Position numbers and translations under genes: made by a program. This document shows, one piece after another, positions 1,583-44,509 of a DNA stretch of 64,000 nucleotides; the stretch's first letter is position 1; each line of letters opens with the position of its first letter. Origin of the DNA: Bolinopsis microptera. Its lineage: Eukaryota > Ctenophora > Tentaculata > Lobata > Bolinopsidae. Under the pieces are notes generated by a model. It was not told the DNA's origin. It made no database searches and saw only the letters and a program-made list of their open reading frames with translations. The DNA lies in contig NC_087079.1 of assembly GCF_026151205.1 (NCBI RefSeq), forward strand, positions 17,354,945 through 17,418,944, written 5' to 3'.

Positions 1583-4500
1583 CTGAGTAACTATTCCTGG
1601 AAGGTATATCTCGATAGCATCCCCGACCTTCATGAACAGGTTCATGAACATGATCATCTTATCTTTCCTGGTCCAGATGTTTAAACCTATCAGATTACTC
1701 TTCTCCTCGCTATCATCCTCAGCTTGTTTCGAGCTCTTGCGGGAACTGAAACCTGCTGACTGAGTGACGGGTTTCTCTAGCGTGCGGGAACTGAAACCTG
1801 CTGACTGAGTGACGGGTTCCTCTAGCGTGCGGGAACTGAAACCTGCTGACTGAGTGACGGGTTTCTCTAACGTGCGGGAACTGAAACCTGCTGACTGAGT
1901 GACGGGTTTCTCTAACGTGCGGGAACTGAAACCTGCTGACTGAGTGACGGGTTTCTCTAGCGTGCGGGAACTGAAACCTGCTGACTGAGTGACGGGTTCC
2001 TCTAGCGTGCGGGAACTGAAACCTGCTGACTGAGTGACGGGTTTCTCTAACGTGCGGGAACTGAAACCTGCTGACTGAGTGACGGGTTTCTCTAGCGTGC
2101 GGGAACTGAAACCTGCTGACTGAGTGACGGGTTCCTCTAGCGTGCGGGAACTGAAACCTGCTGACTGAGTGACGGGTTTCTCTAACGTGCGGGAACTGAA
2201 ACCTGCTGACTGAGTGACGGGTTCCTCTAACGTGCGGGAACTGAAACCTGCTGACTGAGTGACGGGTTTCTCTAACGTGCGGGAACTGAAACCTGCTGAC
2301 TGAGTGACGGGTTCCTCTAGCGTGCGGGAACTGAAACCTGCTGACTGAGTGACGGGTTCCTCTAACGTGCAGGAACTGAAACCTGCTGACTGAGTGACGG
2401 GTTCCTCTAACGTGCGGGAACTGAAACCTGCTGACTGAGTGACGGGTTCCTCTAACGTGCGGGAACTGAAACCTGCTGACTGAGTGACGGGTTCCTCTAG
2501 CGTGCGGGAACTGAAACCTGCTGACTGAGTGACGGGTTCCTCTAACGTGCGGGAACTGAAACCTGCTGACTGAGTGACGGGTTCCTCTAACGTGCGGGAA
2601 CTGAAACCTGCTGACTGAGTGACGGGTTCCTCTAACGTGCGGGAACTGAAACCTGCTGACTGAGTGACGGGTTCCTCTAACGTGCGGGAACTGAAACCTG
2701 CTGACTGAGTGACGGGTTCCTCTAACGTGCGGGAACTGAAACCTGCTGACTGAGTGACGGGTTCCTCTAACGTGCGGGAACTGAAACCTGCTGACTGAGT
2801 GACGGGTTCCTCTAACGTGCGGGAACTGAAACCTGCTGACTGAGTGACGGGTTTCTCTAACGTGCGGGAACTGAAACCTGCTGACTGAGTGACGGGTTCC
2901 TCTAGCGTGCGGGAACTGAAACCTGCTGACTGAGTGACGGGTTCCTCTAGCGTGCGGGAACTGAAACCTGCTGACTGAGTGACGGGTTCCTCTAGCGTGC
3001 GGGAACTGAAACCTGCTGACTGAGTGACGGGTTTCTCTAACGTGCGGGAACTGAAACCTGCTGACTGAGTGACGGGTTCCTCTAACGTGCGGGAACTGAA
3101 ACCTGCTGACTGAGTGACGGGTTTCTCTAACGTGCGGGAACTGAAACCTGCTGACTGAGTGACGGGTTCCTCTAACGTGCGGGAACTGAAACCTGCTGAC
3201 TGAGTGACGGGTTCCTCTAACGTGCGGGAACTGAAACCTGCTGACTGAGTGACGGGTTCCTCTAACGTGCGGGAACTGAAACCTGCTGACTGAGTGACGG
3301 GTTCCTCTAACTTGCGGGAACTGAAACCTGCTGACTGAGTGACGGGTTCCTCTAGCGTGCGGGAACTGAAACCTGCTGACTGAGTGACGGGTTCCTCTAA
3401 CGTGCGGGAACTGAAACCTGCTGACTGAGTGACGGGTTCCTCTAACGTGCGGGAACTGAAACCTGCTGACTGAGTGACGGGTTCCTCTAGCGTGCGGGAA
3501 CTGAAACCTGCTGACTGAGTGACGGGTTTCTCTAACGTGCGGGAACTGAAACCTGCTGACTGAGTGACGGGTTCCTCTAACGTGCGGGAACTGAAACCTG
3601 CTGACTGAGTGACGGGTTTCTCTAACGTGCGGGAACTGAAACCTGCTGACTGAGTGACGGGTTCCTCTAACGTGCGGGAACTGAAACCTGCTGACTGAGT
3701 GACGGGTTCCTCTAACGTGCGGGAACTGAAACCTGCTGACTGAGTGACGGGTTCCTCTAACGTGCGGGAACTGAAACCTGCTGACTGAGTGACGGGTTCC
3801 TCTAACGTGCGGGAACTGAAACCTGCTGACTGAGTGACGGGTTCCTCTAACTTGCGGGAACTGAAACCTGCTGACTGAGTGACGGGTTCCTCTAGCGTGC
3901 GGGAACTGAAACCTGCTGACTGAGTGACGGGTTCCTCTAACGTGCGGGAACTGAAACCTGCTGACTGAGTGACGGGTTCCTCTAGCGTGCGGGAACTGAA
4001 ACCTGCTGACTGAGTGACGGGTTTCTCTAACGTGCGGGAACTGAAACCTGCTGACTGAGTGACGGGTTCCTCTAACGTGCGGGAACTGAAACCTGCTGAC
4101 TGAGTGACGGGTTTCTCTAACGTGCGGGAACTGAAACCTGCTGACTGAGTGACGGGTTCCTCTAACGTGCGGGAACTGAAACCTGCTGACTGAGTGACGG
4201 GTTCCTCTAACGTGCGGGAACTGAAACCTGCTGACTGAGTGACGGGTTCCTCTAACGTGCGGGAACTGAAACCTGCTGACTGAGTGACGGGTTCCTCTAA
4301 CGTGCGGGAACTGAAACCTGCTGACTGAGTGACGGGTTTCTCTAACGTGCGGGAACTGAAACCTGCTGACTGAGTGACGGGTTCCTCTAACGTGCGGGAA
4401 CTGAAACCTGCTGACTGAGTGACGGGTTTCTCTAACGTGCGGGAACTGAAACCTGCTGACTGAGTGACGGGTTCCTCTAACGTGCGGGAACTGAAACCTG

Positions 4501-5350
4501 CTGACTGAGTGACGGGTTCCTCTAACGTGCGGGAACTGAAACCTGCTGACTGAGTGACGGGTTCCTCTAACTTGCGGGAACTGAAACCTGCTGACTGAGT
4601 GACGGGTTCCTCTAACGTGCGGGAACTGAAACCTGCTGACTGAGTGACGGGTTCCTCTAACTTGCGGGAACTGAAACCTGCTGACTGAGTGACGGGTTCC
4701 TCTAACGTGCGGGAACTGAAACCTGCTGACTGAGTGACGGGTTCCTCTAACTTGCGGGAACTGAAACCTGCTGACTGAGTGACGGGTTCCTCTAACGTGC
4801 GGGAACTGAAACCTGCTGACTGAGTGACGGGTTCCTCTAACGTGCGGGAACTGAAACCTGCTGACTGAGTGACGGGTTCCTCTAGCGTGCGGGAACTGAA
4901 ACCTGCTGACTGAGTGACGGGTTCCTCTAACGTGCGGGAACTGAAACCTGCTGACTGAGTGACGGGTTCCTCTAACGTGCGGGAACTGAAACCTGCTGAC
5001 TGAGTGACGGGTTCCTCTAGCGTGCGGGAACTGAAACCTGCTGACTGAGTGACGGGTTCCTCTAACGTGCGGGAACTGAAACCTGCTGACTGAGTGACGG
5101 GTTTCTCTAACGTGCGGGAACTGAAACCTGCTGACTGAGTGACGGGTTCCTCTAGCGTGCGGGAACTGAAACCTGCTGACTGAGTGACGGGTTTCTCTAG
5201 CGTGCGGGAACTGAAACCTGCTGACTGAGTGACGGGTTCCTCTAGCGTGCGGGAACTGAAACCTGCTGACTGAGTGACGGGTTCCTCTAACGTGCGGGAA
5301 CTGAAACCTGCTGACTGAGTGACGGGTTCCTCTAACGTACCCTGCGCCAT
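1583..5350 (-). CDS. Probable MFS transporter, first coding exon with 80 x 15-aa repeats (copy A)
   Basis: The exon encodes M-A-Q-G, then exactly 80 copies of a 15-residue unit (TLEEPVTQSAGFSSR with T/K and E/K variants and one R-to-C), then a 52-residue tail ending GDAIEIYLPGIVTQ at a CAG|GTAGTT donor; reading through gives a stop at 1568. The ATG has an A at -3 and G at +4. In copy B the same exon has one repeat and joins in phase to an exon encoding a second hydrophobic segment, giving a pattern like TM1-TM2 of major-facilitator (SV2/SVOP/SLC22-type) transporters. The family call is inference from that short segment; the repeat would lie in the cytosolic N-terminal tail. The remaining exons would lie left of position 1. 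It is transcribed divergently from HUWE1. Confidence 0.6.
1739..5338 (-). repeat. 45-bp coding minisatellite, 80 units, in frame
   Basis: A 3600-bp array of 45-bp units (80 x 45 exactly) lies inside the first coding exon. All units keep the frame; the visible variants are single-base changes (ttcctc/tttctc gives E/K, cgtgcg/cttgcg gives T/K, agcg/aacg silent). Variant patterns recur at larger spacing: the cttgcg variant at about 3310 recurs at about 3850, 540 bp or 12 units on, so there is higher-order amplification. Copy B has a single unit at 25276-25320. Confidence 0.95.
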
Positions 5351-18251: not shown

Positions 18252-19514
18252 CATATAGTAAGGGGAAAAGTGGTCGATTTAAGGGTTCCGTTGGATTTGA
18301 ATGTTCACAAGGATTTCTCAACGGAATATGGTAGTTAGGACCCCTACGAACATAATTAGACTTGTTGCCAATTTTGTATCTCAACAGAAACACCACTTTT
18401 ACCACTTTTTACCACCTCTGTACCACCTTTCTGGTTTGCCAAATATCTTTAGTTGTGAACATCGTAGAAGGCTGCAAATTAACCTAGAATGTTTATCTTA
18501 TCAAGGAGTAAAACTTTTGTATCAAAAAATTTTTACATTGGACAATCAGCTAATTGGATAATTACCAATTAGTTAATCACCAAAAAAAGTGAAAATTTTT
18601 TATTGGCTCAAAATGATTGAAATCGTTTGAAACACGGAGAAATGTAGTTTTTAAAAATGCTTTGCAGTAAAACTTCGAAGATTTTTAGATTGGGGAATTC
18701 TAAAATCATCAATATTTGAAGTTGGAGTTCAGTAAATCTCGACATATTTTAGTAATTAGGAATAGCTTAGCGGAAAGGGCTGAACCTGAAAAAGGTTAAC
18801 CACACAATATTAGAGTTTCATAACTAATTACAATACAGCTTTATCAAATTCCACATAAAGAAACAGCACAAAAGGACCATTTAAGATCGAACCGATTTTA
18901 CCTGCTGTTCTATCATTTTATTGATTTCAATGATCAAAACCTCTGTACTGTCAATCTTGCCAATCTATACCGGGTATCTGAATGTACCGGACCTTTTTAT
19001 TTACCTCTATAATTAGACCCAGTTGTGCAAGAAATCCGATTTCTCACAGGGGTTTCTTTTAACTGTGCACTTTTTGTCACTCTCGCAAGAGGCCCGGTAT
19101 TATAGGGGGGTATAGGAAGCGTAAATATACCTTCCATCATCCACTGTGGCTTTTTTGTATTGTGAATGCGCATGCCGCTTCGTTTGCTATGCCAGATACC
19201 TCAAATAACCCCCATATCTCATTACCAGGGTCGGGATAGAGCTGGAGATAGCATCGAGAGGTTGCTAGAAATAGCTAGATTTAGAGTAAACTGGTGGTAG
19301 CTGGGTGGTGCTAGCATGGATGTAGCAGAACGTAGCTACACGGGGTTTCATTGGAGTTGGTTATTTTAATGGCCAAAGAGTGCCGGAACTAAAGTTACTT
19401 AAGATTGCAGTTGAGGGGCAGTGTGAACCACGGTGTAGTCACGGACACAGAGCTACAGTGCAGGAGTACTGCAAAAGAACAGTGCAAGTGATACAGTCTG
19501 CAACAGTAAAACGC
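18252..19514. repeat. Left arm of the 1.26-kb inverted repeat
   Basis: It pairs with 20090-21343. Visible differences are few: a small gap at about 18272-18286 next to the outer end, and scattered single bases. It has no recognisable gene. Short frames in it (for example 18301-18561 and its mirror at 21052-21303) are identical in both arms because of the palindrome and have no recognised relatives. Confidence 0.85.
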
Positions 19515-19646
19515 CGAAGAAGGAGATAAGATTGTGGCTGCAGAGGAGGAGAGGAGCTGGAACCTGATTGTGTTTGGGTTGAAAGAAGAGGAGGAAGAAG
19601 AGTTTCCTGCTCTGGTAACTGCATTTTTGGAAGAGGTGGGGTGAGA
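19500..19646 (+). pseudogene. Possible LINE ORF1 fragment in the palindrome spacer
   Basis: The plus strand reads a segment resembling RSWNLIVFGLKEEEEEE followed by FLEEVG and a stop near 19645. The pattern (R.N.IVFGLKE) is typical of the ORF1 protein of invertebrate LINEs. It covers only a few dozen residues and lies where the two arms of the palindrome meet, so it is a fragment. The call rests on motif resemblance only. Confidence 0.35.
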
Positions 19647-20089
19647 ACTTATTTTCAAGCGACAAGGGTGGGCTGGAAGCAACCAGGTATAGCTATCCAA
19701 CCTATTAAGATCACCGTCCTGAGATTAACAGCCTTTTATCAGAATCTGATGAAAACAGAGAGACTGACCCACCCCTTTTAGATCCAACGAAACCGTTTAT
19801 ATAAATCGACTTTTCCGCATGAATTACTTCATGGTATCTTCTTATCAAGGCTACAGACCTTGCCGTACCTAAGCGAGTCTCTTTAGCCCTTTTCTTCTTT
19901 AGAGCTTTAGGTTAATGATCAAACTCTTCGCTACTCGCTCTTCACTGGATCTATCAGGAAAGATTACATCTTTTTAGGTCTCAACCAGCCTTAGTTTTCC
20001 TGTTTTCATCATGTAGTACTAGTACGTTCTGCCACCTCCATTTTAGCACCACCCAGCTTTCATCAGTTCACTCTAAGTCTAGCTTTGTC

Positions 20090-21343
20090 GGCGTTTTACT
20101 GTTGCAGACTGTATCACTTGCACTGTTCTTTTGCAGTACTCCTGCACTGTAGCTCTGTGTCCGTGACTACACCGTGGTTTACACTGCCCCTCAACTGCAA
20201 TCTTAAGTAACTTTAGTTCCGGCACTCTTTGGCCATTAAAATAACCAACTCCAATGAAACCCCGTGTAGCTACGTTCTGCTACATCCATGCTAGCACCAC
20301 CCAGCTACCACCAGTTTACTCTAAATCTAGCTATTTCTAGCAACCTCTCGATGCTATCTCCAGCTCTATCCCGACCCTGGTAATGAGATATGGGGGTTAT
20401 TTGAGGTATCTGGCATAGCAAACGAAGCGGCATGCGCATTCACAATACAAAAAAGCCACAGTGGATGATGGAAGGTATATTTACGCTTCCTATACCCCCC
20501 TATAATACCGGGCCTCTTGCGAGAGTGACAAAAAGTGCACAGTTAAAAGAAACCCCTGTGAGAAATCGGATTTCTTGCACAACTGGGTCTAATTATAGAG
20601 GTAAATAAAAAGGTCCGGTACATTCAGATACCCGGTATAGATTGGCAAGATTGACAGTACAGAGGTTTTGATCATTGAAATCAATAAAATGATAGAACAG
20701 CAGGTAAAATCGGTTCGATCTTAAATGGTCCTTTTGTGCTGTTTCTTTATGTGGAATTTGATAAAGCTGTATTGTAATTAGTTATGAATCTCTAATATTG
20801 TGTGGTTAACCTTTTTCAGGTTCAGCCCTTTCCGCTAAGCTATTCCTAATTACTAAAATATGTCGAGATTTACTGAACTCCAACTTCAAATATTGATGAT
20901 TTTAGAATTCCCCAATCTAAAAATCTTCGAAGTTTTACTGCAAAGCATTTTTAAAAACTACATTTCTCCGTGTTTCAAACGATTTCAATCATTTTGAGCC
21001 AATAAAAAATTTTCACTTTTTTTGGTGATTAACTAATTGGTAATTATCCAATTAGCTGATTGTCCAATGTAAAAATTTTTGATACAAAAGTTTTACTCCT
21101 TGATAAGATAAACATTCTAGGTTAATTTGCAGCCTTCTACGATGTTCACAACTAAAGATATTTGGCAAACCAGAAAGGTGGTACAGAGGTGGTAAAAAGT
21201 GGTAAAAGTGGTGTTTCTGTTGAGATACAAAATTGGCAACAAGTCTAATTATGTTCGTAGGGGTCCTAACTACCATATTCCGTTGAGAAATCCTTGTGAA
21301 CATTCAAATCCAACGGAATGCCACTTTTCCCCTTACTAATATG
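20090..21343. repeat. Right arm of the 1.26-kb inverted repeat
   Basis: Inverted copy of 18252-19514. The inner ends read tttactgttgcagactgtat here and its complement near 19491-19510. Confidence 0.85.
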
Positions 21344-24275: not shown

Positions 24276-24375
24276 NNNNNNNNNNNNNNNNNNNNNNNNN
24301 NNNNNNNNNNNNNNNNNNNNNNNNNNNNNNNNNNNNNNNNNNNNNNNNNNNNNNNNNNNNNNNNNNNNNNNNNNN
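24276..24375. other. Assembly gap of exactly 100 N
   Basis: A fixed 100-N run is a conventional scaffold join of unknown size. It sits between the interrupted zinc-finger exon (left) and sequence belonging to the downstream part of the minus-strand transporter gene (right). Both sides are edges of the same duplicated locus, which supports an artificial join. Confidence 0.98.
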
Positions 24376-24454: not shown

Positions 24455-25332
24455 CTGTTAGAGATAGGAGCAGTAACGACAGTGGATACAGTCAGGGCGA
24501 TATATAACGCTATCCCTAGCCATCCCTCCTGGGCCTTAGTGGCCCCCATCTCGCAAGATATTATCTGAGGGGAGGGAATTAGTGGCCCCCATCTCGCAAG
24601 ATATTATCTGAGGGGAGGGAATTAGTGGCCCCCATCTCGCAAGATATTATCTGAGGGGAGGGAATTAGTGGCCCCCATCTCGCAAGATATTATCTGAGGG
24701 GAGGGAATTAGTGGCCCCCATCTCGCAAGATATTATCTGAGGGGAGGGAATTAGTGGCCCCCATCTCGCAAGATATTATCTGAGGGGAGGGAATTAGTGG
24801 CCCCCATCTCGCAAGATATTATCTGAGGGGAGGGAATTAGTGGCCCCCATCTCGCAAGATATTATCTGAGGGGAGGGAATTAGTGGCCCCCATCTCGCAC
24901 GATATTATCTGAGGGGAGGGAATTAGTGGCCCCCATCTCGCAAGATATTATCTGAAGGGAGGGAATGAAAAGGTCGTGATACGATAAGAAACATATTTCA
25001 ATCTGCATACTGGTTATGGTTAATGAATAATGGTATCTCTAATCTCCAATTTATGTCATATTTATGTAGATCGTGAATTTGTTAGATGATTGAAGAGGTA
25101 AACTATGCATTATAACTACCTGAGTAACTATTCCTGGAAGGTATATCTCGATAGCATCCCCGACCTTCATGAACAGGTTCATGAACATGATCATCTTATC
25201 TTTCCTGGTCCAGGTGTTTAAACCTATCAGATTACTCCTCTCCTCGCTATCATCCTCAGCTTGTTTCGAGCTCTTGCGGGAACTGAAACCTGCTGACTGA
25301 GTGACGGGTTCCTCTAACGTACCCTGCGCCAT
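24455..25332 (-). CDS. Probable MFS transporter, exons 1 and 2 (copy B, one 15-aa repeat)
   Basis: Exon 1 is 25120-25332: MAQG, one TLEEPVTQSAGFSSR unit (25276-25320), then the same 52-residue tail ending IEIYLPGIVTQ before CAG|GTAGTT. Exon 2 is 24455-24564, after a pyrimidine-rich CCCTCCCCTCAG acceptor and before AACAG|GTCAGG. It reads in phase IISCEMGATKAQEGW, then a hydrophobic stretch, then TAPISN-R. The joined reading has TM1-like GDAIEIYLPGIVTQ..CE and a TM2 ending near N-R, the pattern of SV2/SVOP/SLC22-type major-facilitator transporters. The rest of the gene is lost to the gap. The splice model is mine and rests on phase and site quality. Confidence 0.55.
24537..24966 (-). repeat. 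43-bp minisatellite, 10 units, spanning a splice acceptor
   Basis: Ten units of 43 bp (430 bp). Read on the minus strand, each unit contains ttccctcccctcag, a good polypyrimidine tract plus AG, followed by ATAATATCTTGCGAG. The unit nearest the exon provides the proposed acceptor of transporter exon 2 and the others are tandem copies of that boundary. One unit has c for a at about 24900, and the outermost has ctgaagg. Confidence 0.9.
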
Positions 25333-27046
25333 CTTAGGGTGATTTAATGTCTAACTAAGTATAGCAGTGAACAACTCTTACCTCATTAATTAAATTGTAT
25401 GATTTTTCGTTCGTTACAAGGTAACTAAATTGAATGTGGTAACCTTGCCTGGTCACTTGGTTGATCACTACACAACACAATACGACAACAAAAAAACACA
25501 CCAACGATATTCATTCTTTTTCTGTAACTAGGCCTAGGCCAAGACTTATCATACTGATAAGGCCCAAGATAAGGGCAATTGATTTTAACGTCTGATTTAG
25601 TGCATGTTTTAACAAATAGCCGATTTTAATTTATAATTTAAGACTCAGATCGCAATTCTGTAGTATACGGTATAATATATATATAGGTACCCTATACGGT
25701 ACCACCGGTTCTCGTGAAAGGATCTAATTTGAACTGTAGTTAGATTATAAGGTTTATATTTTCTCTACTTTTATTGTTACTCTTTTGGTTACAACTTCAC
25801 AACAAGATCAAAGTATTTAGATTTGCCCGGTTTAAATATTCAACAAAGATTTTTTAAGTGAAAACAACTGAACTGGAACGGTTTAAAATGTCCAGTTTTA
25901 GCAAGACAATATATTGAGTTATTATCCACCAAATAAACCTAATTACTAAACTTACTTAACTACCCTGTCACTTGAATGATCGATGAAAATTATAAAATTA
26001 CAACATAGCACGAATTATCACGTATACATGTATACTGGTAGGATCTGCTGTACAATCAAAGTAAAGTGGGCCAGTAGCTACATATTATAATCATCTAATT
26101 CTCTACGCTCTGCGATGTGTAGTACTGTGTCCAGTGTCTATTGTCCATAGTTAATACTTATCTTCAGTAATTCCATGTTGTTGTAATCCATATAATTAGG
26201 TTTAACTAAATTTTTTAAAAGTTATATATCTCATAGCAAAGTAACTCTGTACGGGACATATCTCATAGCAAAGTAACTCTGTACGGGACATAATATGTAC
26301 AGAGTTACTTTGCTATGAGATATTATCTCATAGCAAAGTAACTCTGTACGGAACATATCTCATAGCAAAGTAACTCTGTACGGGACATATCTCATAGCAA
26401 AGTAACTCTGTACGGGACATATCTCATAGCAAAGTAACTCTGTACGGGACATATCTCATAGCAAAGTAACGCTGTACGGGACATATCTCATAGCAAAGTA
26501 ACTCTGTACGGGACATATATCATAGCAAAGTAACTCTGTACGGGACATATCTCATAGCAAAGTAACTCTGTACGGGACATATCTCATAGCAAAGTAACGC
26601 TGTACGGGACATATCTCATAGCAAAGGAACAGTTGAACTGCTAGCTGCTCACCAAAATGGAAACCACTTACAATATACAATACGCGTAAAGTACAATGGG
26701 GATCGTTTACATGCTGAGTAGCCAGATTTTTACCATTTCGACCCCCCCCCCCCCCCCCCTACCTCCATGAGCAACAGAAAGCTATTGTGTTCAAGTTAGA
26801 GTGAGCTTATGGAGATTCCCTCTCCCCTACGCTGGCTTTCGTTATACAATATACATAGAAGGTTCCCCTTAAGTGTAGGTACAAGACTTCAGCCTAGTAT
26901 TTGAGTGGCTTAACAGGGACTTATCTTTAGAAAGTTCTAACTCTTTAAAGATACTGTGAATTCCTTTTAAATAGTTGCAATAAAAGATAATCAAATATTC
27001 ACTTAAAATAATTTAAACACGTGTTAAACCTCCTTGTCCCTGTCAG
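25333..27046. other. Intergenic or intronic region, copy B equivalent of 5351-7330
   Basis: This is collinear with copy A but shorter. It lacks the 358-bp block of copy A and instead carries the 32-bp array and a poly-C tract (about 26743-26759). No exon is recognised. Confidence 0.6.
26225..26635. repeat. 32-bp minisatellite with one inverted unit (copy B only)
   Basis: About twelve units of acatatctcatagcaaagta+actctgtacggg. One unit, at about 26289-26321, is in inverted orientation, so the array contains a perfect local palindrome around tactttgctatgagatatta. The array is absent from copy A. Confidence 0.9.
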
Positions 27047-30000
27047 GAAGTGATAAAGATCCACCCTCAAGCTAGCACGGTGGTTTGCAGGCGGGTACTG
27101 GACCTCTTAGTGGCACTTGGCCGGTACTTCCCCAACCACTTCCTTAGCAGGAGTGTTACAGACTCCGGCCTCAAATACGGTGGAAACAAACTTCCTGATG
27201 ACAAGAAGGTAAAGAATTCTTTACTTTTCTTCAAATTATATGTTTCTGTAGTAATCTTAGAAATTAACTGGTACTCTCGAGTCTCGAGCATCAAAATTTC
27301 AAATGAATATAAAATATTGGCTACTTTTTTATAATACTAAAAGTGATGTATTAAATACACTTATTAGGCCCCACAAGCTGAGCTTCTCAACACTGGATTA
27401 GCTCTTACTGACTTCTGGGACTTCCTACTCAGCTCAGATCATGGTTAGTTATCAGAAATACGTAGTAAGTTGTGTAATAAATATGTAATGAATAATAAAT
27501 ATGTAATGAATAATAAATATGTAATGAGTAATAAATATGTAATGAATAATAAATATGTAATGAATAATAAATATGTAATGAATAATAAATATGTAATGAA
27601 TAATAAATATGTATACTAATTATATTAGAAATTATGCATTATCTTTAGTTACCATATTCAATTTCATTGTTTATTGCATTCTGTTTAAACTTTGACATTA
27701 AATTAAAAATATGTAGTATGTGCCCGTTTCTATAAGATGTAATTAGAAAATTTTATGCTGAATGAGTTAGGTCAAATTAATTTGATCTAAGATATTTGGT
27801 TGGGGAGGCGGATTATTGTTGTAAAGTACTGTACTACTCACGAAGTACTGTACACGATGTTTTCAAGCAAGCAGATATTTAAATTGACTAGATTTCCACT
27901 GGTAAGCAATTCGGAAAATCATGGGCCGGCATAGTGTCGGGGCGGGTATGATCCGCCAACCTCCGAGTTACATGCCTGGTACTCTACCAAGGCAAATTTG
28001 ATCTAGTTATATTAAGTTACCTACCTACCTATTTTATATTAAGTTTATTTTTAGTGAATTAACATATCAGTAATTAGAAACCACAAAACATGCCCGATAT
28101 TTTCAGTAAAAGGAAAGACTCCGTCAGGAAAGTCTACCAAGATGGGGACCTCGTCCCACTTCTTATCGTGCCCCATGGGACAGCTAATGGTTCTACTAGA
28201 TCACCCCGTCATTAAAAACAACCAGAACCTCATAGATAGGTAAGACTTAGCACTAACACAGTGTATAACCTTACTTACACTATTCCTTTGTGATATGGGT
28301 GGAAATTCTTGTGAATGACGTTAAATAACGCAAGTCCCTTATAATCTACAACACTAACACACTCCCCTATAATTTCCACTTCTAGGTTACTGAGACTGCT
28401 GTCCTCTATAGCGCATGCTCTAGCCGAACAGACTTCCGACAAGAAAGAGGACAAGAAAAACAAGAATGTGGAACCCTTACCAGAGGACTGTCCAGAGAAC
28501 AGCATTGAGAAACAACATCTCCAACTGGTTACTAGCATCCTCACCACTGGAGCCTGTAGTGAGGTAATAACTAGATTATTTTATATATAATTATAAAGTT
28601 AGAATTAAAAGTCTATTCCCATGAAAGTCATGTCATCCTACTTTGCCATCCGTACATTATTTTGATTTACATATTAACTAATTAACTAATTAACTAATGG
28701 ACTATCTAATTACAGGAGGGATTGGAGGACGGTACTTCACTATTACTCCAGCTGTCCAAAGTAAACTCCAGGCTTAGAGACATGACGCTGTCTCTAATGT
28801 TGTCCGGACTGCAATCAGTCGCTGCTGACCTTCAGCAACAGGTAATTTAATGCATTGATTAAATAACTTATTGGTTAATCAATTGAGGAATAAGTAAATT
28901 TAAATAAGTAAGTTCCTGAGGAGGTTAAGTTTTCTTCAATTCCTTAGTTTTATCAGTAACCTTGAATACTTTGTCAAATAAGAGACGTCATATCAAAAAA
29001 ATATTGGGAACGCAACCGTAACTTTAATCTGACAAACAATTTCAGATAAAGCAACTGTTGGAAGAGCTAAAAGAAGAGCACCGAAGGAACCCACAGAAGA
29101 AACAAAAAGAGAAGGATGTGACAAAGAGCAAAGCCCTGACCTTGCAGCCCAACAAGGGTTCTCTCAAGACTCCACACAGGGATCTCCATCTTCCTGCCAT
29201 GTCTAATCTGACCAAGAAAAACAGCAGCCAGGCTTACTTCCTACGTATACTCAAGGTACGTATTTCATTCTAATTAACACCGGTCTCGGCATTACTTCTC
29301 AGTATTAATGGTTATACCGACCGAGCATTTTGCTATAGCCCTCCAAATAAGAATTAGCTAAATGTAAGGGTTTAACAATTTCCCATCAACGTATCGAACT
29401 TAAGTCTTTATCTCATTATGTTTACATAGTACTATTAACTATTAACTATTTGTAGGTGGTTATAGCTGTCAGGGACGTCACGATTAAAAGCATTGAGGCC
29501 GAGAAAGATAAGAAGAAGAAAGAGCGTGAAGCTAAGGTGAAGGAAGAGAAAGAGAAGAAGAGGAAGGAGAGAGAAGAACAGAGGAAGGAGGGCGAAGAGA
29601 CGGAGAGTGACGATGAGGAGGACGAGGAGGAAACTAAGAGTGAAGAGGAAGAGGACAGTAAGTCTTCCTTTTTATTTTTTAAATAATCGCATTTTTGTTA
29701 GGAATCAATTAAGTGTAACACTTAAATATTTATATGTTGTGAGGGATATCTTTAACATGTCAGTAGATTACAAGTAATTAGCAAGATGATTAAGTAATTA
29801 GCAAGATGGTAACAATTAAAGTGGTATATACTTGCCTCATTAACTCTTGTTTCTCTCAGAAACGGGAGGTCTGGGTCCACTATCAGAACAACTCAAAGTC
29901 TCTCAACTGTGGACCACTCTGGGAGAATGTCTGACTGAGCTTGGTTCCAGCTCCGATACTCACGCCGTCCTGGTTCTTCAACCCGCCGTTGAGGCTTTCT

Positions 30001-31472
30001 TCCACGTTCACGGTATTGACAGTACCGCAGAGAAGACCTCTTCTGCTTCAAGACGAGGCCGCAACACATCGGGATCTCTGGATCTGTTGAGCGAGAGTCC
30101 TGCTCCGCTGAGTGTGGAACCTGTGGATAGTGTGAGCTCTCTGAGTTCAGGGGGTCAAGGCTCCTTACCTATCTTTACTTCCGACATGTGTCCTGATACT
30201 CGCAAGTTCATCACATTCGCCGAGCAGCACCGTATCGTGCTGAACCAAATATTGAGACAGAGCACTACACCGCTCAGTGACGGTCCCTTCCAGGTTCTAG
30301 TCAATCACACTCGTGTCCTGGACTTTGACGTGAAGAGAAGGTACTTCCGACAAGAGCTGGATAAGATAGAAGAAACTAACAGAAGAGAGGACATCGCTAT
30401 CAGGGTCCGACGAGAGCACGTGTTTGAGGAGAGCTTCAGAGAGCTGCACAGGAGATCCCCTGAAGAGTTGAAGAGCAGATTGTACGTGATATTCGAGGGA
30501 GAAGAGGGGCAGGACGCTGGTGGTTTGTTGAGGGAGTGGTACCAGATTATCGCTAGAGAGATTTTCAATCCTCACTACGCTCTCTTCACTACTACCCCCG
30601 GGGACAAGGTCACGTACGTGTGCAACAGTTTCAGTCATTACAATCCAAATCACTTGGACTACTTCAAGTTTGTAGGCCGAGTCATCGCCAAAGCTATCTA
30701 CGATAACAAACACCTGGACTGCTACTTTTCCCGGTCATTCTACAAACACATTCTCGGACAGCCAATTAGTTTCAAGGACATGGAACACGAAGACTATGCT
30801 TTTTACAAGAGCATGATGTTCCTTCTGGAGCACGATCTGGTCGAGGCTGGGCTAGACAACCTGGACTTTACTATGGAGATAGAAGAGTTCGGAGTATCAG
30901 AGACCAGGGAGTTAAAACCTAACGGTGACAACATTGCCGTCACGAACTCCAATAAGAAGGAGTATGTGAAACTCATCTCCCAAATGAAGATGACCGGCAG
31001 TATAAGGTCCCAGATAAAAGCTTTCCTTGACGGTTTCTACGATATAATCCCCAAACACCTCATCTCGATATTCAGCGACAACGAGCTTGAACTTCTGATA
31101 TCTGGTCTCCCAACCATTGATATCGAGGATCTGAAAGCGAACACCGAGTATCACAAATTCAGCGTCACCTCCCTCCAGATCCAGTGGTTCTGGCGAGCGC
31201 TGCGCTCCTTTTCGCAAGCGGAACGCGCCAACTTCCTTCAGTTCGTCACCGGCACCTCCAAAGTTCCTCTACAGGGCTTCTCTTCTCTCGAGGGTATGAA
31301 TGGCGTGCAGAAGTTTCAGATTCACAGAGACGACAGGTCTACGGACAGACTGCCTTCCGCTCATACCTGCTTCAACCAGCTTGATCTTCCAGTTTACGAG
31401 ACCTACGATAAACTGAGGAGGAACCTCCTTCTCGCCATCAATGAGTGCCCTGAAGGATTTGGCTTGGCTTGA
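27047..31472 (+). CDS. HUWE1: HUWE1-like HECT E3 ubiquitin ligase, C-terminal 899 residues (copy B)
   Basis: Eight exons with the same lengths as copy A: 27047-27208, 27368-27443, 28107-28239, 28386-28563, 28716-28841, 29046-29255, 29456-29657 and 29860-31472. The protein differs from copy A at about three positions (E/D and D/E in the charged exon 7, C/G in exon 8 near SLPIFTSD). The catalytic cysteine codon is at 31368-31370. Such near-identity across exons, with introns that differ only by discrete insertions, is what two alleles would show. The upstream part of the gene is again not found. Confidence 0.96.
27473..27613 (+). repeat. 18-bp minisatellite in HUWE1 intron 2 (copy B)
   Basis: About seven to eight units of the same 18-bp repeat as at 7940-8118, starting shortly after the exon 2 donor. 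Confidence 0.88.
27923..27995 (-). pseudogene. tRNA-Thr(UGU)-derived sequence, probable SINE head
   Basis: On the minus strand, TTGGTAGAGTACCAGG resembles a tRNA D-arm/A-box, CATGTAA is an anticodon loop with UGU, and GGCGG/CCGCC makes a perfect five-pair T-stem with a decayed loop (ATCATAC in place of TTCAATC). The 5' acceptor strand is missing. Copy A has different sequence here, so this is a tRNA-derived insertion or pseudogene. Confidence 0.45.
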
Positions 31473-32030
31473 AGTTTGAACTGCAAAAGCTTAACATGTT
31501 GCCGAGCAATTATTATGATACGTGACCTAACTTTTGGTTGCCGAGCGAATATATTCATCGGCTTTTTGGGAACCGCTGTAAATTATTTTCAAGTTGGATA
31601 CGTTGAACTTATTGCAGATTCATTGGTTTTTTAGTTTTTGGAATATGTTTTCACATTGAAAGGGGTATACGGGGATAAAAGAGAAGATATAAAATGTATC
31701 GGCTTGTTATTTATAATGTTGTTGTTTACAACACGACTTAATATATCGGGGTAATAGTTGTGACAGGTCGTGTTTCAGATCATTATATTAGATGATCGTT
31801 GAATGCGTGGGTAGTGAGTTTAGGGGCCATCTACATTTACTAACCTCACTCCTCCGCTATAACTTCGTTCATGAAAATGACTGTCGTTTTTAGGCATCTG
31901 TGTGGCACGTGCACGCGGTGCCATTTAACTTCGTTTTTAGCTTACATTTCCAAGGAAGAATTTCATATACACGGATTAACCTCTAGATTGTGTACCTGTT
32001 CCTCAAAAATCTTAATAGTTTTCAAATAAA
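31473..32030 (+). other. HUWE1 3' UTR and poly(A) signal (copy B)
   Basis: Matches copy A with small indels; AATAAA at 32025-32030. Confidence 0.55.
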
Positions 32031-32078
32031 TTTAACTCAATAATCGCATATCATTTCTTCAAATGTGGCTTCAAGCGT

Positions 32079-32812
32079 ACCCCCCCCCCCCCCCCCCCCC
32101 TTCAAGCTTGTTGCTTGCATGTTAATGACCTACCAAGACACGCGCCGAGATGGACTCGTCGACGGTCTTGGAACAATTGTTTTACGAGTATCGCCCAACT
32201 TCAACATTCAAGCTTGCCTCTTGATGTTACCTGGGGGCCTCAGGCTTTTCTGTTCACATATTAAAGATGCGGCGGAATGACAGGCTGATGAATGAGCGCC
32301 GCTCAGTAAGCTTGCCGGTTTATGCGGCTTACCTAACTAATTTATTGCTTGCTTCTCTTTCTCTCATAGAAAGATCTTTCCCAAACAAAAGGAAATGATA
32401 TTAATTTGAATCACCTAAAAATGCTATTTTCACAATTTTCTGTCAACTTTGGAGTCCCGTTGTGATGGGAAAAGCGAGCGACCGATTTCATTCTCGGTAT
32501 CATTTTGCATTTGCGGACGGTTATTCAAATTAAAATCTTTTCCTTTTACCTGGGGACCTCAGGCTATTATGTTCATACAGAATAGAGATTCGGCGGAATG
32601 ACAGGCTGAGCGCGGCTCAGTAACTTTTCCTTTAGTTTGGGAAAGAGAGACATTGCACATTGGCAGCGGTCCACTCGACCCATGATAATGGGTTTTGGTC
32701 AAATATCATCTCTTTTTGATTATAATCATAATGTCAGGGTACTTTTCAAAGTCGAAATGTAAATTCATAATTTTATTAGCAATAAGTAAAGAGGTAATTT
32801 CAACGATTTCGA
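32079..32812. other. About 730-bp block present only in copy B, with two TTAC MITEs
   Basis: Copy A runs straight from ...cttcaagcg to aaattttacctctg (about 12765-12775). Copy B has a poly-C tract and about 730 bp, including MITEs at about 32235-32312 and 32546-32623. No coding sequence was recognised. Confidence 0.65.
32546..32623. mobile_element. 78-bp TTAC...GTAA MITE with 9-bp target duplication
   Basis: TTACCTGGGGACCTCAGGC...GCTCAGTAA is flanked by cttttcctt at 32537-32545 and 32624-32632. It is one of the cleanest members of the family in the window. Confidence 0.82.
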
Positions 32813-33004
32813 AATTTTACCTCTGAAAACATTTCCTTGTGTTTAGAAAAACATATCTTTCGATCACTAACTGAATATGCCACATAATTCTCATTCAAGT
32901 TGGCATTAAATTCAAACATAATGACATTGAACTGTCGTGGCAAAGCAGAATTTGTTCGAAATCACGAATGAGCAAAATTCTCATCTTTCGCACGTACAAA
33001 CTTT

Positions 33005-33150
33005 TTGTCATACGTTGTATGACCCGCCGCGCACTTCGTGCGCGGCTCCCCCTGTAGCGTCGAAGACGCTACTATAGCGTCGAAGACGCTACTATAGCGT
33101 CGAAGACGCTACTATAGTGAAGCGACCGTGGGGGTCACCACGTGATACAA
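33005..33150. mobile_element. 146-bp multi-hairpin MITE with 8-bp target duplication, copy B only
   Basis: Flanked by caaacttt at 32997-33004 and 33151-33158; copy A has one copy of this 8-mer with matching flanks. The ends are TTGTCATACGT and ACGTGATACAA (imperfect inverted repeats). Inside are hairpins in series: gtcatac/gtatgac, gccgcgcac/gtgcgcggc, and three tandem copies of tagcgtc-gaa-gacgcta. An 8-bp duplication fits hAT-like elements. Confidence 0.82.
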
Positions 33151-34805
33151 CAAACTTTGAGTTACCTGGGGACCTCGGCCTCGGCGGAATGACAGGCTGA
33201 GCGCGGACCAGTAAACTTTGAGCGGACGTTGCGTGCGCATTTGACGGATGTCGCGCCGGGCCAGATCATTAAAAATGGTCAAGTGCGCATCTTGTAGCGC
33301 GATGCACTACTGGGTCGCGCCGCGCATCAAATAATTCTTCTCGAAACCACGGTAGATCGGCGAGATGCACCACTGTGCCTCACCGAGCTGCGAAGGATTT
33401 ACATCGTGAATCAAGTGCGCATCCAATATTGAATCACCTTTTTGCATATTCGTTATTTTTTCATTCCCCTAACGAAGAATTGGACTTACTTCCTTATACG
33501 GTCATATCACGTGATCGAAACAGTTTTTCGCCAATATCTCGTCAGGGGAGCATTCGGAATCAGCGTCCCAAAATACATCGCGATCGATTGAAGTTGGTTT
33601 TAACTGTTGGGGGCCCTTTTAGAACAATTTCGAAGATCGACTGTAAAATGATTTAGCACGCTTGTGCCAAACCGGAACCATAAAAACCAAACACCAAAGT
33701 CACTTGACGGTTGTAGCGCAATGCACTACTGGGTCGCGCGCGTGCATCCAATAATGCTTCTCCATTCTCGCAACCACTTATGCACTATGCAGATCGGCAA
33801 AATGCGAAGGATTGACATCGTGAATCAGATTTGACGGATGTTACTCGCGGTCGCGCTAAATCACTCTACAGTCGATTCTTCCATTTTCACCACTTTTAGT
33901 TTCGCATTGGATAAGCACATGTTATACGCGCGCGTTACGTGTCAATCATATTTGATCCCGATTTCTTACTTTGGGTTTCAAACTTGCTTGTCGAGTTTTC
34001 GTCAATAATCAATTATCATCCATGATTCATCATTGCCACTTGTGTAATACCTTGAAATCCTATAAGTTGAATGAATAGGTTTTAAAATTGTTGACATAGC
34101 ATAGAAGGACTGTTGTCAGAATGTAGAATGATACAGAGCCGCCTTCAGAAGTTAAAATTGTTGAGCCTTATTTTCTAGTGTACTGTTTCGTATGACATAT
34201 GAGTCGAGGTACAAATAGAATTTATCGCTGGATCAAAATGCTGAGATTTTAATATAAAGCAAAGCCAAGTATCAATAAACTAGTTTAGATTACGCCTGAT
34301 TGCTTGAGTCCTATTTAAAAATATTTTTGATATGTGATCCTAGAAGTAGAATCACAAATTTTGCATTCGTTTTAATTGTGTTTTTTTTATGCGAAGAGCA
34401 TAATATATTGTTTTTCCTTAAGCCAGCTGATCCAGCTATTGTAAAAGTCTACGGTCTAAAATGCTGCTTACTTTAGAAACACTGCGCTTCTTATTTGAAT
34501 CATTAAATCTAGGCTGCATAAAATGATAGGTTTTCGGATTTTGACCTAAGCAGCCGAAACTGATATTATTATTATTGTTATCCATATAATATACTATTAT
34601 CGATGTAGTTTAATAGACTATAAATTTATTATATAACCTGGTTTTATTTCCATAGAAGTGTTTTTACCAGTTACTTTAGTAAATTAACAAAATGTACGTC
34701 TCCACTCTGCAGTTCCGACTGCAATTCGAACTTTGCCGTCTAGAATCTAGTGTGAATATTATAGATATTTACAACAAATATTTTAATTGGTAATCTTGTT
34801 TTGCT

Positions 34806-34872
34806 TTACTGGGCCGCGCCAAATCTTTATTCAATATGTTAATGAACATAATAGCCTGGGGTCCTCAGGTAA
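34806..34872. mobile_element. 67-bp TTAC...GTAA MITE inside the 7.7-kb element
   Basis: TTACTGGGCCGCGCC...GTCCTCAGGTAA with gttttgct at 34798-34805 and 34873-34880 (8-bp duplication). Confidence 0.8.
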
Positions 34873-35469
34873 GTTTTGCTCTTATGAGTGGGTCAATCAT
34901 TTATTTTTAATTGTAGTTGACGAAATCGTAGTATTAATAGATTATTTTAACATTGTATCTTTGCAGCTATGTAAGTTTTCAGTACGTCCTGTTTATGACA
35001 AAGGCATGTAGCCGAAACGTCGACAAAGAATTATGTTTTAACACACTGAGTGGAGACTCTCATTTCGTCAACTACAATTAAAATATTTTAATTATCAGGT
35101 TCATCAGCATGGGACAAGTTGCAGATCAACCGCCATATAGGTACGTACTACAAGGTTTTCATTTATGACTCAGTAATACAATTAAACAACAAGTTAATTT
35201 AAGAGTTGCAATTTGATTGATATACAATATCATGCGATAGTTTATCAAAATACTTCGAAGGCTTTTAACTTGAATAACAATATCATTTTTAAAGCAAGGT
35301 TTGTAATTGAAGGCAAGCATATCGGTCTGGGTAACACGACTCCTGTCCGACAGCGACAGCTGTCCGACAGCGACATCTGTCCGAATCAGGGTACCAGAAA
35401 AAAACGACATCTGTCCGAAATTGTGACCTGATTTGAGATATGATCTGAGCCATAGTTTACTACCACAGT

Positions 35470-35772
35470 TTATTTTTCGATAGCTTTGAGGAAATCCATA
35501 GGGTTGCTGTAGTTGTCGTAACCATCTACAATTCTCTGAAGTTGTCCATCATAACGGATCCATTTGGGTGCACGTGGCTCAGGTAGTTCCCGCCAGTCTC
35601 TTTTGGTTTTCTTCACGTCTGTAACAGGAGAGTTTGGAGTCAGGTACTCCTCCCAGATGTTGGTCTGCTTAACATGCTTCAGGAGGGCTTTCTTGTAGTG
35701 GAAGTTACATCCTCGTCTGGTAGTGGAGGGCCACACGGAAGCAACTTGCTCGAGATTCGTAACCCAATCCAC
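35470..35772 (-). pseudogene. MULE-type transposase C-terminal fragment (100 aa)
   Basis: The frame includes VWPSTTRRGCNFHYKKALLK, which matches the conserved F/WP...GC.FH..QA region of Mutator-like transposases, then ends RIVDGYDNYSNP..FLKAIEK, similar to the sequence downstream of that region in animal MULEs. The N-terminal DDE-bearing part is missing: upstream on this strand lies the (TCAGGG)n array. It is therefore a relic and the most informative clue to the parent element. Confidence 0.5.
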
Positions 35773-35773
35773 C

Positions 35774-36115
35774 GACCCTGACCCTGACCCTGACCCTGAC
35801 CCTGACCCTGACCCTGACCCTGACCCTGACCCTGACCCTGACCCTGACCCTGACCCTGACCCTGACCCTGACCCTGACCCTGACCCTGACCCTGACCCTG
35901 ACCCTGACCCTGACCCTGACCCTGACCCTGACCCTGACCCTGACCCTGACCCTGACCCTGACCCTGACCCTGACCCTGACCCTGACCCTGACCCTGACCC
36001 TGACCCTGACCCTGACCCTGACCCTGACCCTGACCCTGACCCTGACCCTGACCCTGACCCTGACCCTGACCCTGACCCTGACCCTGATCCTGATCCTGAT
36101 CCTGATCCTGACCCT
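35774..36115. repeat. (CCCTGA)n hexanucleotide array, about 57 units
   Basis: 342 bp of uninterrupted ccctga, with four cctgat variants near the right end (36084-36107). On the complementary strand this is TCAGGG, a known variant of the animal telomere repeat TTAGGG. It abuts the transposase fragment directly, so it may have expanded inside the former gene. Confidence 0.97.
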
Positions 36116-36116
36116 G

Positions 36117-37720
36117 ACTTTAAACTTTCCAGATAGTTACATGGCTATAAGACGGATAATCTGAGCAAGTTTGGGCAAATTTCTATGTGCAAAACTTGAG
36201 ATATGACTTCAAACACATTAAAATATCTCAAATTGGCGGTTTTGGTACGATATTTGACGAAAGTCGATTATCTCAAGATCTAACTGATAGAATTTCTTTA
36301 AACTTTCCAGAAAGGGGGGGAGCCAAGTAGATTTTTGTAGATATTTGGATACGTTAATTCACCACTTGTTTCGTGAATTATCCATTACAATAATCTACAA
36401 ATATCTACATTTATCTACAAAAAATGTATATCTCAAATATGTGCCCAGAAATTCTACTGAATTTTTGGAGATAAATGTATAAATTTGTAGAATTTGTAGA
36501 ATTTTCGTGAATTATCCATTGACAATAATCTACAAATATCTACATTTATCTACAAAAAATGTAATCTCAAATATGTGCCCAGAAATTCTACTGAATTTTT
36601 GGAGATAAATGTATAAATTTGTAGAATGTCAACCACTTTTTTCGTGGATTATCCATTCTACATTAATCTACAAATATCTACAAATATCTACTTGGCTCCC
36701 CCCCCCCCCCCCCCCCCAAATAGTTACATGGCTATAAGACGATTAATCTGAGCAAGTTTGGGCGAATTTATATGTGCCAAACTTGAGATATGACTTCAAA
36801 CACATTAAAATATCTCAAATTGGCAGTTTTGGTACGATATTTGACGAAAGTCGATTATCTCAAGATCTTACTGATAGAATTTCTTAAAATGTTTCCAAAT
36901 AGTTACATGGCTATAAGACAGACAATATGAGCAAGTTTGAGCGAATTTCTATATGCCAAATTTGAGATATAACTTCAAACACAAGAAAATATCTCAAATT
37001 GGTGCGTTCTAGCGGAACGCGGGCATATATTTTGAGATCTAACTGATAGAATTTTTTAAACTTTCCAGATAGTTACATGGCTATAAGACAGATAATCTGA
37101 GCAAGTTTGGGCGAATTTTTATGAGCCAAACTTGAAATATGACTTCAAACACATTAAAATATCTCAAATTGGCGGTTTCGGTACGATATTTGACGAAAGT
37201 CGAGTATCTCAAGATCTAACTGATAGAATTTTTTAAAACTTTCAAAATAGTTACATGGCTGTAAGACGGATAATCTGAGCAAGTTTGGGCGAATTTCTAT
37301 GTGCCACACTTGAGATATGACTTCAAACACAAGGAAATATTACAAATTGGTACGGTACGCAGGCATATATTTTGAGATCTGACTGATAGAATTTCTTTAA
37401 ACTTTCCAGATAGTTACATGGCTATAAGACGGATAATCTGAGCAAGTTTGGGCAAATTTGAAATTTCTATGTGCCAAACTTGAGATATGACTTCAAACAC
37501 ATTAAAATATCTCAAATTGGCGGTTTTGGTACGATATTTGACGAAAGTCGATTATCTCAAGATCTAACTGATAGAATTTCTTTAAACTTTCCAGATAGTC
37601 ACATGTCTATAAGACGGATAATCTGAGCAAGTTTGCGCGAATTTCTATGTGCCAAACGTGAGATATGACTTCAAACACAAGGAAATATTTCAAATTCTAT
37701 CAGTTAGATCTTGAGAAAAT
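36117..37720. repeat. Tandem array of about 160-190 bp units, about 7 copies
   Basis: Units start around tttaaactttccagatagttacatggctataagac and continue through gagcaagtttgggc, gagatatgacttcaaacaca and gatatttgacgaaagtcga to ctaactgatagaatt. Starts are near 36118, 36717, 36893, 37065, 37234, 37395 and 37580. Units differ by point changes and a variable middle. The last is cut short at about 37700. Copy A has none of this. Confidence 0.85.
36314..36716. mobile_element. MITE with GGGGGAGCCAAGTAGAT ends nested in the satellite
   Basis: The ends GGGGGGAGCCAAGTAGAT and ATCTACTTGGCTCCCCCC are inverted repeats with homopolymer tips. Inside, a block of about 110 bp (cgtgaattatccatt...ggagataaatgtataaatttgtag) is directly duplicated. 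It interrupts the first unit of the surrounding tandem array at its ccagata motif, so it is a later insertion. Confidence 0.65.
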
Positions 37721-39420
37721 CGAAAATAACCGCCAGCTTATGTAATGTAATCACAACTTGTTTAAGTTGACTATGAAAACCTTCCCCAGTTTGGCTATGA
37801 TATAATTGATATCTCTAAATAAAATTGGCCTACGTTAAGATTCACCATTGAGCGAGCTACAAAAAATACACAGTACACACTCACATTCCTACCCAGTGCA
37901 CACTATAACTGTTGCCAGATAAAACATTCAATGACTTGCTTTAATTACAATTAATAAACGATGTGCAGACACGTCATGCTAAAATACATATTCCGAAGTA
38001 AGATTAATCCCAGAATAATTTTTAGCAACTTTCAGACACGTTTTCAAACATAATCCAACAGCTACAGACAACTGCTGCAAGGAACTATTTCTTCCAGATG
38101 TAATGAATCGAAATTTAATAGGGTCCTTGTGCATTTTTGTCGTACCATACAGATATGGAAGCTTTCTATTCTCAGACTTGATTTTAATTCCATGAGACTT
38201 GAGGAAGTCTGCATGTCTGAGAATGATTTCAGGATCTTGTTAAGGTTGATATCCTCAACATATTTATTAGTGTACTGAACTACCATGTAATTGTTACTTT
38301 CAGGTTGACTCTTCTTTGACCAAACGTATTTACATCGATACAATTAGTATAATGTAAACAAACAAAACCCCGATTTACCACGAACCCCGATTTACCGCGG
38401 ATGTTTCCTTTCCCCCAAACTCCGCGGTAAATCGGGGTTTTACTGTATTTAAAAAGTTTCGATTCCGCAATAATTTCCGTTCACAAATTAGGTGGGATCA
38501 TGATTCATACATATCAAATTCTGCATACATGTATATATTGATATTGTATAACTCAATCTATAGCATATAATAAGACGGGTGTACTCATCAATTAATTTAG
38601 TTTAAACACTACTTTATTTAGCTCCTTATTATATTTGAAATCCGAATTGAATATTATTTATGAGAGTCAAATTTTTGTTGATCCCACGTTTGATTACGAT
38701 GTTGTCACATTGAAACGTTGAATAATTCCTTTCCTCCTTATTTTATTTTTCATAAATATCTTATCATAAATATCTTATCAGGAGCAAAGAAAAACAGTCC
38801 TGGCTGTCCAAGAACCCTAACAGGGCCGGAACACACAACCAGTGATAGCAGGAAATACAATAAGCAGTGGCGTAACAACAAAAAGAACTAGAGGGATAGA
38901 ACAGGTTACCACTTCCTGTAAAGAAGAAGAATAAAAAACATTCCCCCCATCTCACGTGCAGGCAGATTAAAAATCTTACTGTTATCTATATTTTGAGACC
39001 TCATGTGGCGTGTTTTTCTGCTTTTTATACTTATAATACTAAAGATTCTGCAGTCTTAACTCTTATACTTTTCAAGTAAAAATAATTGACTTCGGTAAAA
39101 TTGTAATATGCCGACTCGCTATAAAGGTTTAAAACATGAGTGATTGTTGGTTGTAAAGTGCTAAGTATTTTTCCTTCTTAAATGGCTATATAAAAAGGCT
39201 TGTTATATTAGCCGGAGTTTAGCAGCTCTGAAACAACCTTATGATAGAGCGCACAAATATAGAGCAGCTGTTATGAACAGTCAACTAATAGCCATTTAAC
39301 GGCCGTGATCATGTCGTTACGATAATACATAATAGCCGTCTCAGCTTTTTTAGCCGGTTAATTAGTTTACCGGCTTACGCAGTGGGAGATTTATAATTCG
39401 CATCGTTTTGTCGTTTTAGA
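37721..39420. other. Interior of the 7.7-kb element without recognised genes
   Basis: A minus-strand frame at 38062-38343 (93 aa, with CKYVWSKKSQP) has no relative I recognise and may be chance. A perfect hairpin, aaaccccgatttaccgcgga with its complement, lies at about 38365-38445. The rest is AT-rich with no clear signal. Confidence 0.5.
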
Positions 39421-41150: not shown

Positions 41151-41555
41151 GTCCATGTCGTGTTCGGTGTTTTATAACTCCCGACATGGCTGCACAACAG
41201 TCTCCCTTAAGAACACTTTCCACTGTTAATGCAAATTATCATTTACGATCGTTGTTCTACCAATCTGCCTTAATAAATTTGTTCATGAATTCATACACTG
41301 TAAGTGTAGACTGTATTATTAGTGCCGTACATTTGATTAGCAATTTACTGGGCATGCGACTTAATTGTGTCATGATGTTGATAGTTGCCAAATTTCGGTA
41401 ACAAATTAGGACTTAATTTGAGTTTACTGCACGCGCGATGAATAATTTGTGTTTATAGAGATCTGCGGCGCGTTATGAGGTTAACCAGTGAAATCACGGC
41501 GTTTTCGTCACGTGACAGTCGAGTGTAGAGTGATTAATTATCATCCTGTTACTCG

Positions 41556-43320: not shown

Positions 43321-43639
43321 GTACCCATACGTTGGGTCTTATACCTCCGCCGTGTTTTATATTTGAGAGTTGTTTCTTTGCAGATGGCATACTGTACCTA
43401 CTTGTTCGAGGATTCCGTCGCCAAAATTTGAAAATTCGAATATTATAGACCACGCCCATTCAATATTAAAACACCTATATTGTTCTCTCTGAACATGCTG
43501 GACGCCTAAGGTTTTCCAAGATGGTAGATTATTAGATGTTGCATCTGATCTGAAAAAATTATGTGAAATGGATTAGGAATGACAAAATTATTAATAAAGC
43601 CTTGATACACTAAGTTACAAGGTAAAGGGTATGACTTAA

Positions 43640-44174: not shown

Positions 44175-44509
44175 TTAACAGTAGAAACATTGAAAAAATT
44201 TTAGATTAATTAATATCATAAGCATGTTTAAAAAGAAATTTCAGATACACTTTAAAAGAGTCCAATGACATGCAATTCTTAATTTCAAGAGGCAGCTCAT
44301 TTCATAATTGAGGGCCAACTTTCTGAAACGATCTTTCTCCATACTGTGTATATGCTCTAGGTTCAGTCAAATAGATAAGATGATTATTATATACACATAC
44401 ATCCATCTAAATTCAAATTTAAGGTGCAGTGGTTAGTCAATCTTTTGTTGATTGTTGTGATCATGATAAGTTTTTTGTATCTAATAAAATTGTTTCAGCA
44501 TTTTAGCTT

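Follow-up and report, generated by a model that had tools for sequence, protein, structure and literature searches.

The window analyzed here is a 64,000-nucleotide stretch of the Bolinopsis microptera assembly (C8:17354945–17418944). It contains two related regions, designated copy A and copy B, that face each other across a scaffold gap. The gap is the only run of Ns found by N-run counting in the window, is exactly 100 long, and occupies 24276–24375. Self-comparison placed copy A (1–24275) at the right end of one contig, where it is homologous to B through its last base, and copy B (24376–44792) at the left end of the next contig, where its homology to A begins with the first base. When the arrays at 1–1023 and 1738–5338 were masked for the self-comparison, 1571–24275 was collinear with 25108–44792, interrupted by insertions on both sides. 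Divergence was counted on 16 collinear blocks of at least 150 bases (17 rows in all), and it amounted to 136 substitutions in 10,072 aligned bp (1.35%). The same alignment contained 59 gap openings, which may be allelic differences or residual long-read errors.

Copy A carries a coding minisatellite on the minus strand at 1739–5338, the unit of which, TLEEPVTQSAGFSSR, is 45 bp long and encodes 15 residues. TRF, run on the window, reported 80.0 copies of 45 bp at 1738–5338 with 98% matches and 0% indels, and cutting the minus-strand frame into units gave exactly 80 × 45 bp, uninterrupted and of six unit types. The consensus TLEEPVTQSAGFSSR accounts for 55 of the 80 units, 19 carry an E to K change, 5 carry a T to K change, and one carries an R to C change; furthermore, CTA replaces TTA silently in 20/80 units. 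The array thus has four variable sites (three non-silent and one silent), one of which varies in a single unit only. In copy B, on the other hand, blast and the window self-comparison located a single unit at about 25275–25320, which is 100% identical to the consensus. The difference of 79 units, equal to 1185 residues, is far beyond chance. A preliminary description of this DNA had given exactly 80 units in one copy and one in the other, with changes limited to E/K, T/K, one R/C and silent ones; TRF, unit splitting and blast agree on the count, and the six unit types and four variable sites match the listed changes.

The array lies within exon 1 of a minus-strand gene, in the same exon and in an unbroken frame in both copies, as had also been described. 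In copy A, exon 1 (1583–5350) is 3,768 nt long, whereas in copy B (25120–25332) it is 213 nt long; both were delimited from the open frame and splice signals. The exon starts at an ATG (5350 in A, 25332 in B) preceded by an in-frame stop. MAQG comes first, followed by the units, then a hydrophilic stretch and the first membrane segment, and the exon ends at a CAG|GTAGTT donor. Tandem units in the ~10–100 bp range that sit in an exon and in frame define a coding minisatellite, and the 80 × 45 bp array, with 0 indels in exon 1, is of this kind. However, a 45-bp period stays open once one unit is open, and a second minus-strand frame across the array is open as well (1210 aa), so that the open frame taken alone is weak evidence. 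A Pfam search with the piece holding one unit gave no match, and no known repeat-protein family was found for it.

Paralog alignment placed exon 2 of copy B at 24455–24564 on the minus strand, where it encodes IISCEMGATKAQEGWLGIALYIALTVSTVVTAPISN plus two bases. The corresponding exon of copy A lies at about −878 to −987, ~0.9 kb to the left of the window, and exons 3–5 of copy A are located to the left of the window too. The exon 3 piece matched the Pfam profile Sugar_tr at 28 bits, above the cut-off of 22.3, and MFS_1 at 30 bits, below the cut-off of 33.4, while no Pfam profile was matched by the exon 1–2 and exon 4 pieces. Among solved structures, the best relatives are GLUT5 (E 3.5e-5) and SV2A (E 1.3e-4). 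Across the genome assembly that we searched (264,652,675 bases, 232 contigs), exon 3 has 122 matches, which lie on C1–C13; the closest of them other than itself is 57% identical. An unbroken alignment of the joined exon 1–2 protein was obtained with 10 of the 11 fetched paralogs; the eleventh (L009) showed no match to it, even with 3 kb of extra upstream sequence. Paralogs in which the start was read (e.g., L012, L013 and L016) share the layout WTRKD...GDAVEIYLPG...QEG but have no repeat, which places the array in the N-terminal tail. In the major facilitator superfamily (MFS), the N-terminal tail is cytosolic. Judged by these similarities, the host is an MFS transporter paralog, SV2/SLC22-like, and the array occupies its hydrophilic tail ahead of the first membrane segment, in line with the earlier suggestion of a cytosolic transporter tail. 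It resembles the SV2/SLC22/sugar-porter branch in its Sugar_tr match but differs in the repeat-laden exon 1 and the broken downstream frame.

The 45-bp array has repetitive neighbors, tandem repeats of period at least 10 making up about 19% of the window. A 57-bp minisatellite detected by TRF on the minus strand spans the end of exon 1 and its donor; it covers 1–1023, extends to about −210 on the left of the window, and has more sequence at about 1531–1630. Inside this array of copy A, 1024–1529 is an inserted element, recognized by eye from its terminal inverted repeats and TA target duplication. Donor-like copies of the 57-bp unit number 23 in A versus 1 in B. Similarly, a 43-bp minisatellite (TRF, minus strand) spans the intron-1 acceptor and the start of exon 2 at 24536–24966 in B, with its A counterpart to the left of the window; it has 13 copies in A (12 with the acceptor motif) and 10 in B. 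An 18-bp array also differs between A and B (9.7 copies versus 7.7). If the frame is continued beyond the first donor, it runs into a stop in both copies, and consequently the first donor is the only one compatible with a working transcript.

Could the arrays at the two junctions of intron 1 be related to the way in which this intron arose? The junction is crossed without a break by 56 of the 78 non-self matches, one of the 56 having a stop. Among the remaining 22 rows, the six that were read, from three genes (L024–L026), have an intron 14 nt upstream and in another phase. An intron at the position of intron 1 was not found in the paralogs read, and intron 1 may be lineage-specific. Minisatellite-like duplications of intron–exon boundaries, called mirages, have been described in the Adh3 and globin genes of amphioxus, where they differ between haplotypes (e.g., 6 and 3 units in BflGb6), leave regular splicing undisturbed, and have been suggested to give rise to new intron positions (PMC3087553). 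The 57-bp and 43-bp arrays likewise have units that span a boundary, in this case the donor and acceptor boundaries of intron 1, and their copy numbers differ between A and B, which we take to be alleles. The likeness, as far as the amphioxus account goes, does not extend to the 45-bp array, which is wholly exonic and off the boundary; moreover, copy numbers here are larger, and three arrays occur in one gene. Since the boundary minisatellites also vary between A and B, the 80-copy array can be seen as one case, the coding one, of a repeat turnover that affects the locus in general.

Does the repeat-bearing gene still encode a transporter? One possibility is that it works on both haplotypes, that the breaks described below are assembly errors, and that the 80-copy allele yields a ~1,600-residue transporter with a 1,200-residue hydrophilic tail that is maintained or favored by selection. 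Exons 1 and 2 would allow this, as the start codon, the frames and the splice signals are intact in both copies, and no indel occurs across the 3.6-kb array. The downstream exons are different. Exons 3–5 of copy A were compared with three paralogs, and an alignment required two shifts of reading frame, one close to where exon 3 begins and one ahead of the last part. Moreover, an eight-codon stretch of the loop that follows the sixth membrane segment contains four stops (segments numbered by analogy). The frame through the membrane segments of copy A is thus off at three places within ~1 kb, and as assembled it would end soon after TM2.

The quality of the assembly bears on these breaks. It was made with wtdbg, HiRise scaffolding, gap closing, haplotig purging and pilon polishing, as stated in the source available to us (PMC10232365). 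From the wtdbg-plus-pilon route we infer that the underlying reads were PacBio CLR, which are noisy. Leftover indels are common in assemblies from such reads, and the breaks in exons 3–5 could be residual long-read errors. On the other hand, a 542-codon HECT exon (1.6 kb) and a 701-codon reverse-transcriptase frame (2.1 kb) are unbroken in the same contig. Furthermore, open frames of at least 330 codons hold 89 of the 121 other family matches; the other 32 lie in shorter frames, which may reflect introns, truncation or breaks. These long unbroken frames make general assembly noise an unlikely cause of the breaks. Stop-free matches are frequent in the family (113/122), but this concerns a stretch of 129 residues only, in which the present gene is stop-free too.

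Between A and B, transporter exons 1–2 show three non-silent changes and one silent change, compared with one non-silent and seven silent changes in the neighboring HECT exon, which is suggestive of relaxed constraint on the transporter exons, although the counts are too few for a test. Within the array, 135 single changes are possible per unit (34 silent, 94 non-silent and 7 producing stops), and the three non-silent sites to one silent site are therefore as would be found without constraint. Taken at face value, the frame breaks in exons 3–5 indicate that the 80-copy allele probably encodes no working 1,600-residue transporter and that the paralog appears to be losing its function or to be a pseudogene. 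A gene working on both haplotypes under selection on its tail is, in our judgment, unlikely. The preliminary description had proposed that the alleles differ by about 1185 residues; this holds for the number of encoded units, but a polymorphism in protein length is doubtful with exons 3–5 of the 80-copy allele off-frame at three places and with no second set of these exons located for copy B.

The same description had left two explanations for the regular array, namely that it expanded recently or that selection holds it in frame. Is the lack of indels evidence for the latter? As a control, we collected the TRF rows of period at least 10 and at least 5 copies in the window and its left flank (27 rows, some describing one array twice). 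Ten other arrays (5,386 bp) have at least 96% matches, and 8 of the 10 are without gap characters, the exceptions being one 43-bp array with a single gap character at its edge and the 57-bp array with five. Where the period is no multiple of 3 and matches reach 93% or more, eight arrays (~4.0 kb) together have one gap character. A 40-bp array at 92%, just under the 93% bar, has 12 gap characters, and 32-, 58- and 178-bp arrays are gapped too. The 57-bp array adjoining the coding array is 98% alike and has its five gap characters within 1.2 kb, and so a 3.6-kb array free of indels is not to be taken for granted. Consequently, the lack of indels neither shows nor excludes selection. We rejected the notion that selection is needed to hold the frame, because comparably regular arrays are mostly free of indels too and the variable sites fall in the unconstrained ratio.

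At half of the 1.35% divergence, ~24 independent changes would be expected in 3,600 bp of array that dated back to the split between A and B, compared with the four variable sites observed. Most of the array is thus much younger than the A/B split or is being evened out, and short-read polishing could be partly responsible for the low diversity. Furthermore, the order of the unit types is non-random: the best self-alignment scored 14.6, which was reached in 0/300 shuffles (mean 7.1, maximum 12.1), with near-repeats of the order occurring ~11 units apart. The longest repeated block, of 9 units, is less striking, as 46/1000 shuffles gave a block of at least 9. Such an order of unit types is what would result if unequal exchange or slippage had duplicated whole blocks. 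Of the two earlier explanations, recent expansion or turnover is thus upheld, whereas selection is not needed.

The array, or its length, might also be an artefact of noisy long-read assembly and polishing. The wtdbg assembly, gap filling and pilon polishing used for this genome can misjudge the length of an array and even out its units. However, the unit variants are arranged in non-random blocks, the flanks of the array are intact, and the 57-bp, 43-bp and 18-bp arrays differ between A and B too, which makes the difference part of a wider pattern. We regard an artefact as unlikely.

We then have to ask whether A and B are alleles, as had been proposed, or paralogs that arose by a true tandem duplication on a single chromosome, only one of which underwent expansion of the array. 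The homology runs up to both edges of the gap: the first base of B (24376) matches A at −1066, to the left of the window, and the last base of A (24275) matches B at 44792. An assembly gap between copies on one scaffold is a listed mark of false duplication, and the present arrangement is like the false heterotype (haplotypic) duplications treated in that source in its near-identical copies, single scaffold and intervening gap, with homology reaching the gap (PMC9516828). On the grounds of the 100-N gap and the homology up to both its edges, we read A and B as overlapping allelic contigs; they are likely two haplotypes placed side by side, and the earlier proposal is the most likely one. The two copies do adjoin in the same orientation on one scaffold, and the same picture would result from a longer duplication whose two ends lay concealed in the gap. 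Near-identical local gene pairs also exist elsewhere in the assembly, namely the innexin pairs L019/L020 (C7; 98.2% over 2.2 kb, same strand, ~180 kb apart) and L021/L022 (C1; 99.7% over 3.4 kb, inverted, ~124 kb apart). These pairs, however, could be either retained haplotypes or recent duplications. Moreover, both copies stop exactly at the 100-N gap, inside the homology, and the DNA of exons 3–5 is present once; the genome search for a second full copy, which would belong to copy B, gave only the sequence itself and two short matches of 75–77% identity. Tandem duplication is, in view of this, unlikely.

The reading that we favor, with a probability of about 0.65, is a recent, probably neutral, haplotype-specific expansion of a coding minisatellite (coding VNTR) in a decaying MFS paralog. 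On this view, successive tandem duplications, some of them of blocks of ~11 units, would have raised a lone 45-bp segment of exon 1 to ~80 copies in one allele, while the other allele would retain the one-copy state, which is likely ancestral. The 45-bp unit together with recent expansion or turnover would suffice to keep the array in frame, with no selection required. Loss of function of the paralog, suggested by the broken downstream frame of the 80-copy allele, would make such an expansion tolerable. A more dramatic outcome, and by our estimate a long shot, is that assembly errors account for the breaks and that the two alleles are both expressed, so that transporter forms of ~430 and ~1,600 residues would occur in one animal, with a 1,185-residue tail grown from one to 80 units within 1.35% divergence and mirage-like repeats at both junctions.

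Coding VNTRs are known from mucin genes and from LPA KIV-2, the latter with 1–40 units per allele (PMC10983947, PMC11462820). As in the cases covered by these sources, the units at the present locus are exonic, tandem and in frame, and their number would differ between alleles. Those arrays are in functional genes, whereas the host here looks frame-broken and one allele is at one copy. The array would belong to a known class, the coding VNTRs, and it is notable for the extreme ratio and for the adjoining mirage-like repeats. The parts of the literature consulted on ctenophore minisatellites, Bolinopsis tandem repeats, coding minisatellites in transporters, coding VNTRs, and ctenophore SV2/MFS expansion contained nothing on this locus.

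If the one- and 80-copy states are allelic, nature provides here a clean case of the extent and speed with which a coding repeat can grow from a single unit, the unexpanded allele being still at hand. It also illustrates that an in-frame, low-diversity coding array is in itself no evidence of selection. The boundary repeats that flank intron 1 would extend the occurrence of mirages from amphioxus to another, distant group of animals. Should the gene prove functional, there would be a very large difference in protein length between two alleles.

Other repeats were observed in the window. Copy A contains an inverted repeat with near-identical arms (18286–19522 and 20083–21318) that has no counterpart in the A/B alignment. 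In copy B, 57 copies of GACCCT at 35774–36118, in a stretch without a copy A counterpart, form a run of SG dipeptides in a 224-codon minus-strand frame. A 15-bp array of 32 copies at 60219–60704 is 99% alike and open in several frames. A long inverted repeat is located at 51805–54658 and 56446–59250, with one 1,533-nt arm pair that is 100% complementary. Related frames occur in the two arms, and one of these frames has a C2H2 zinc finger match.
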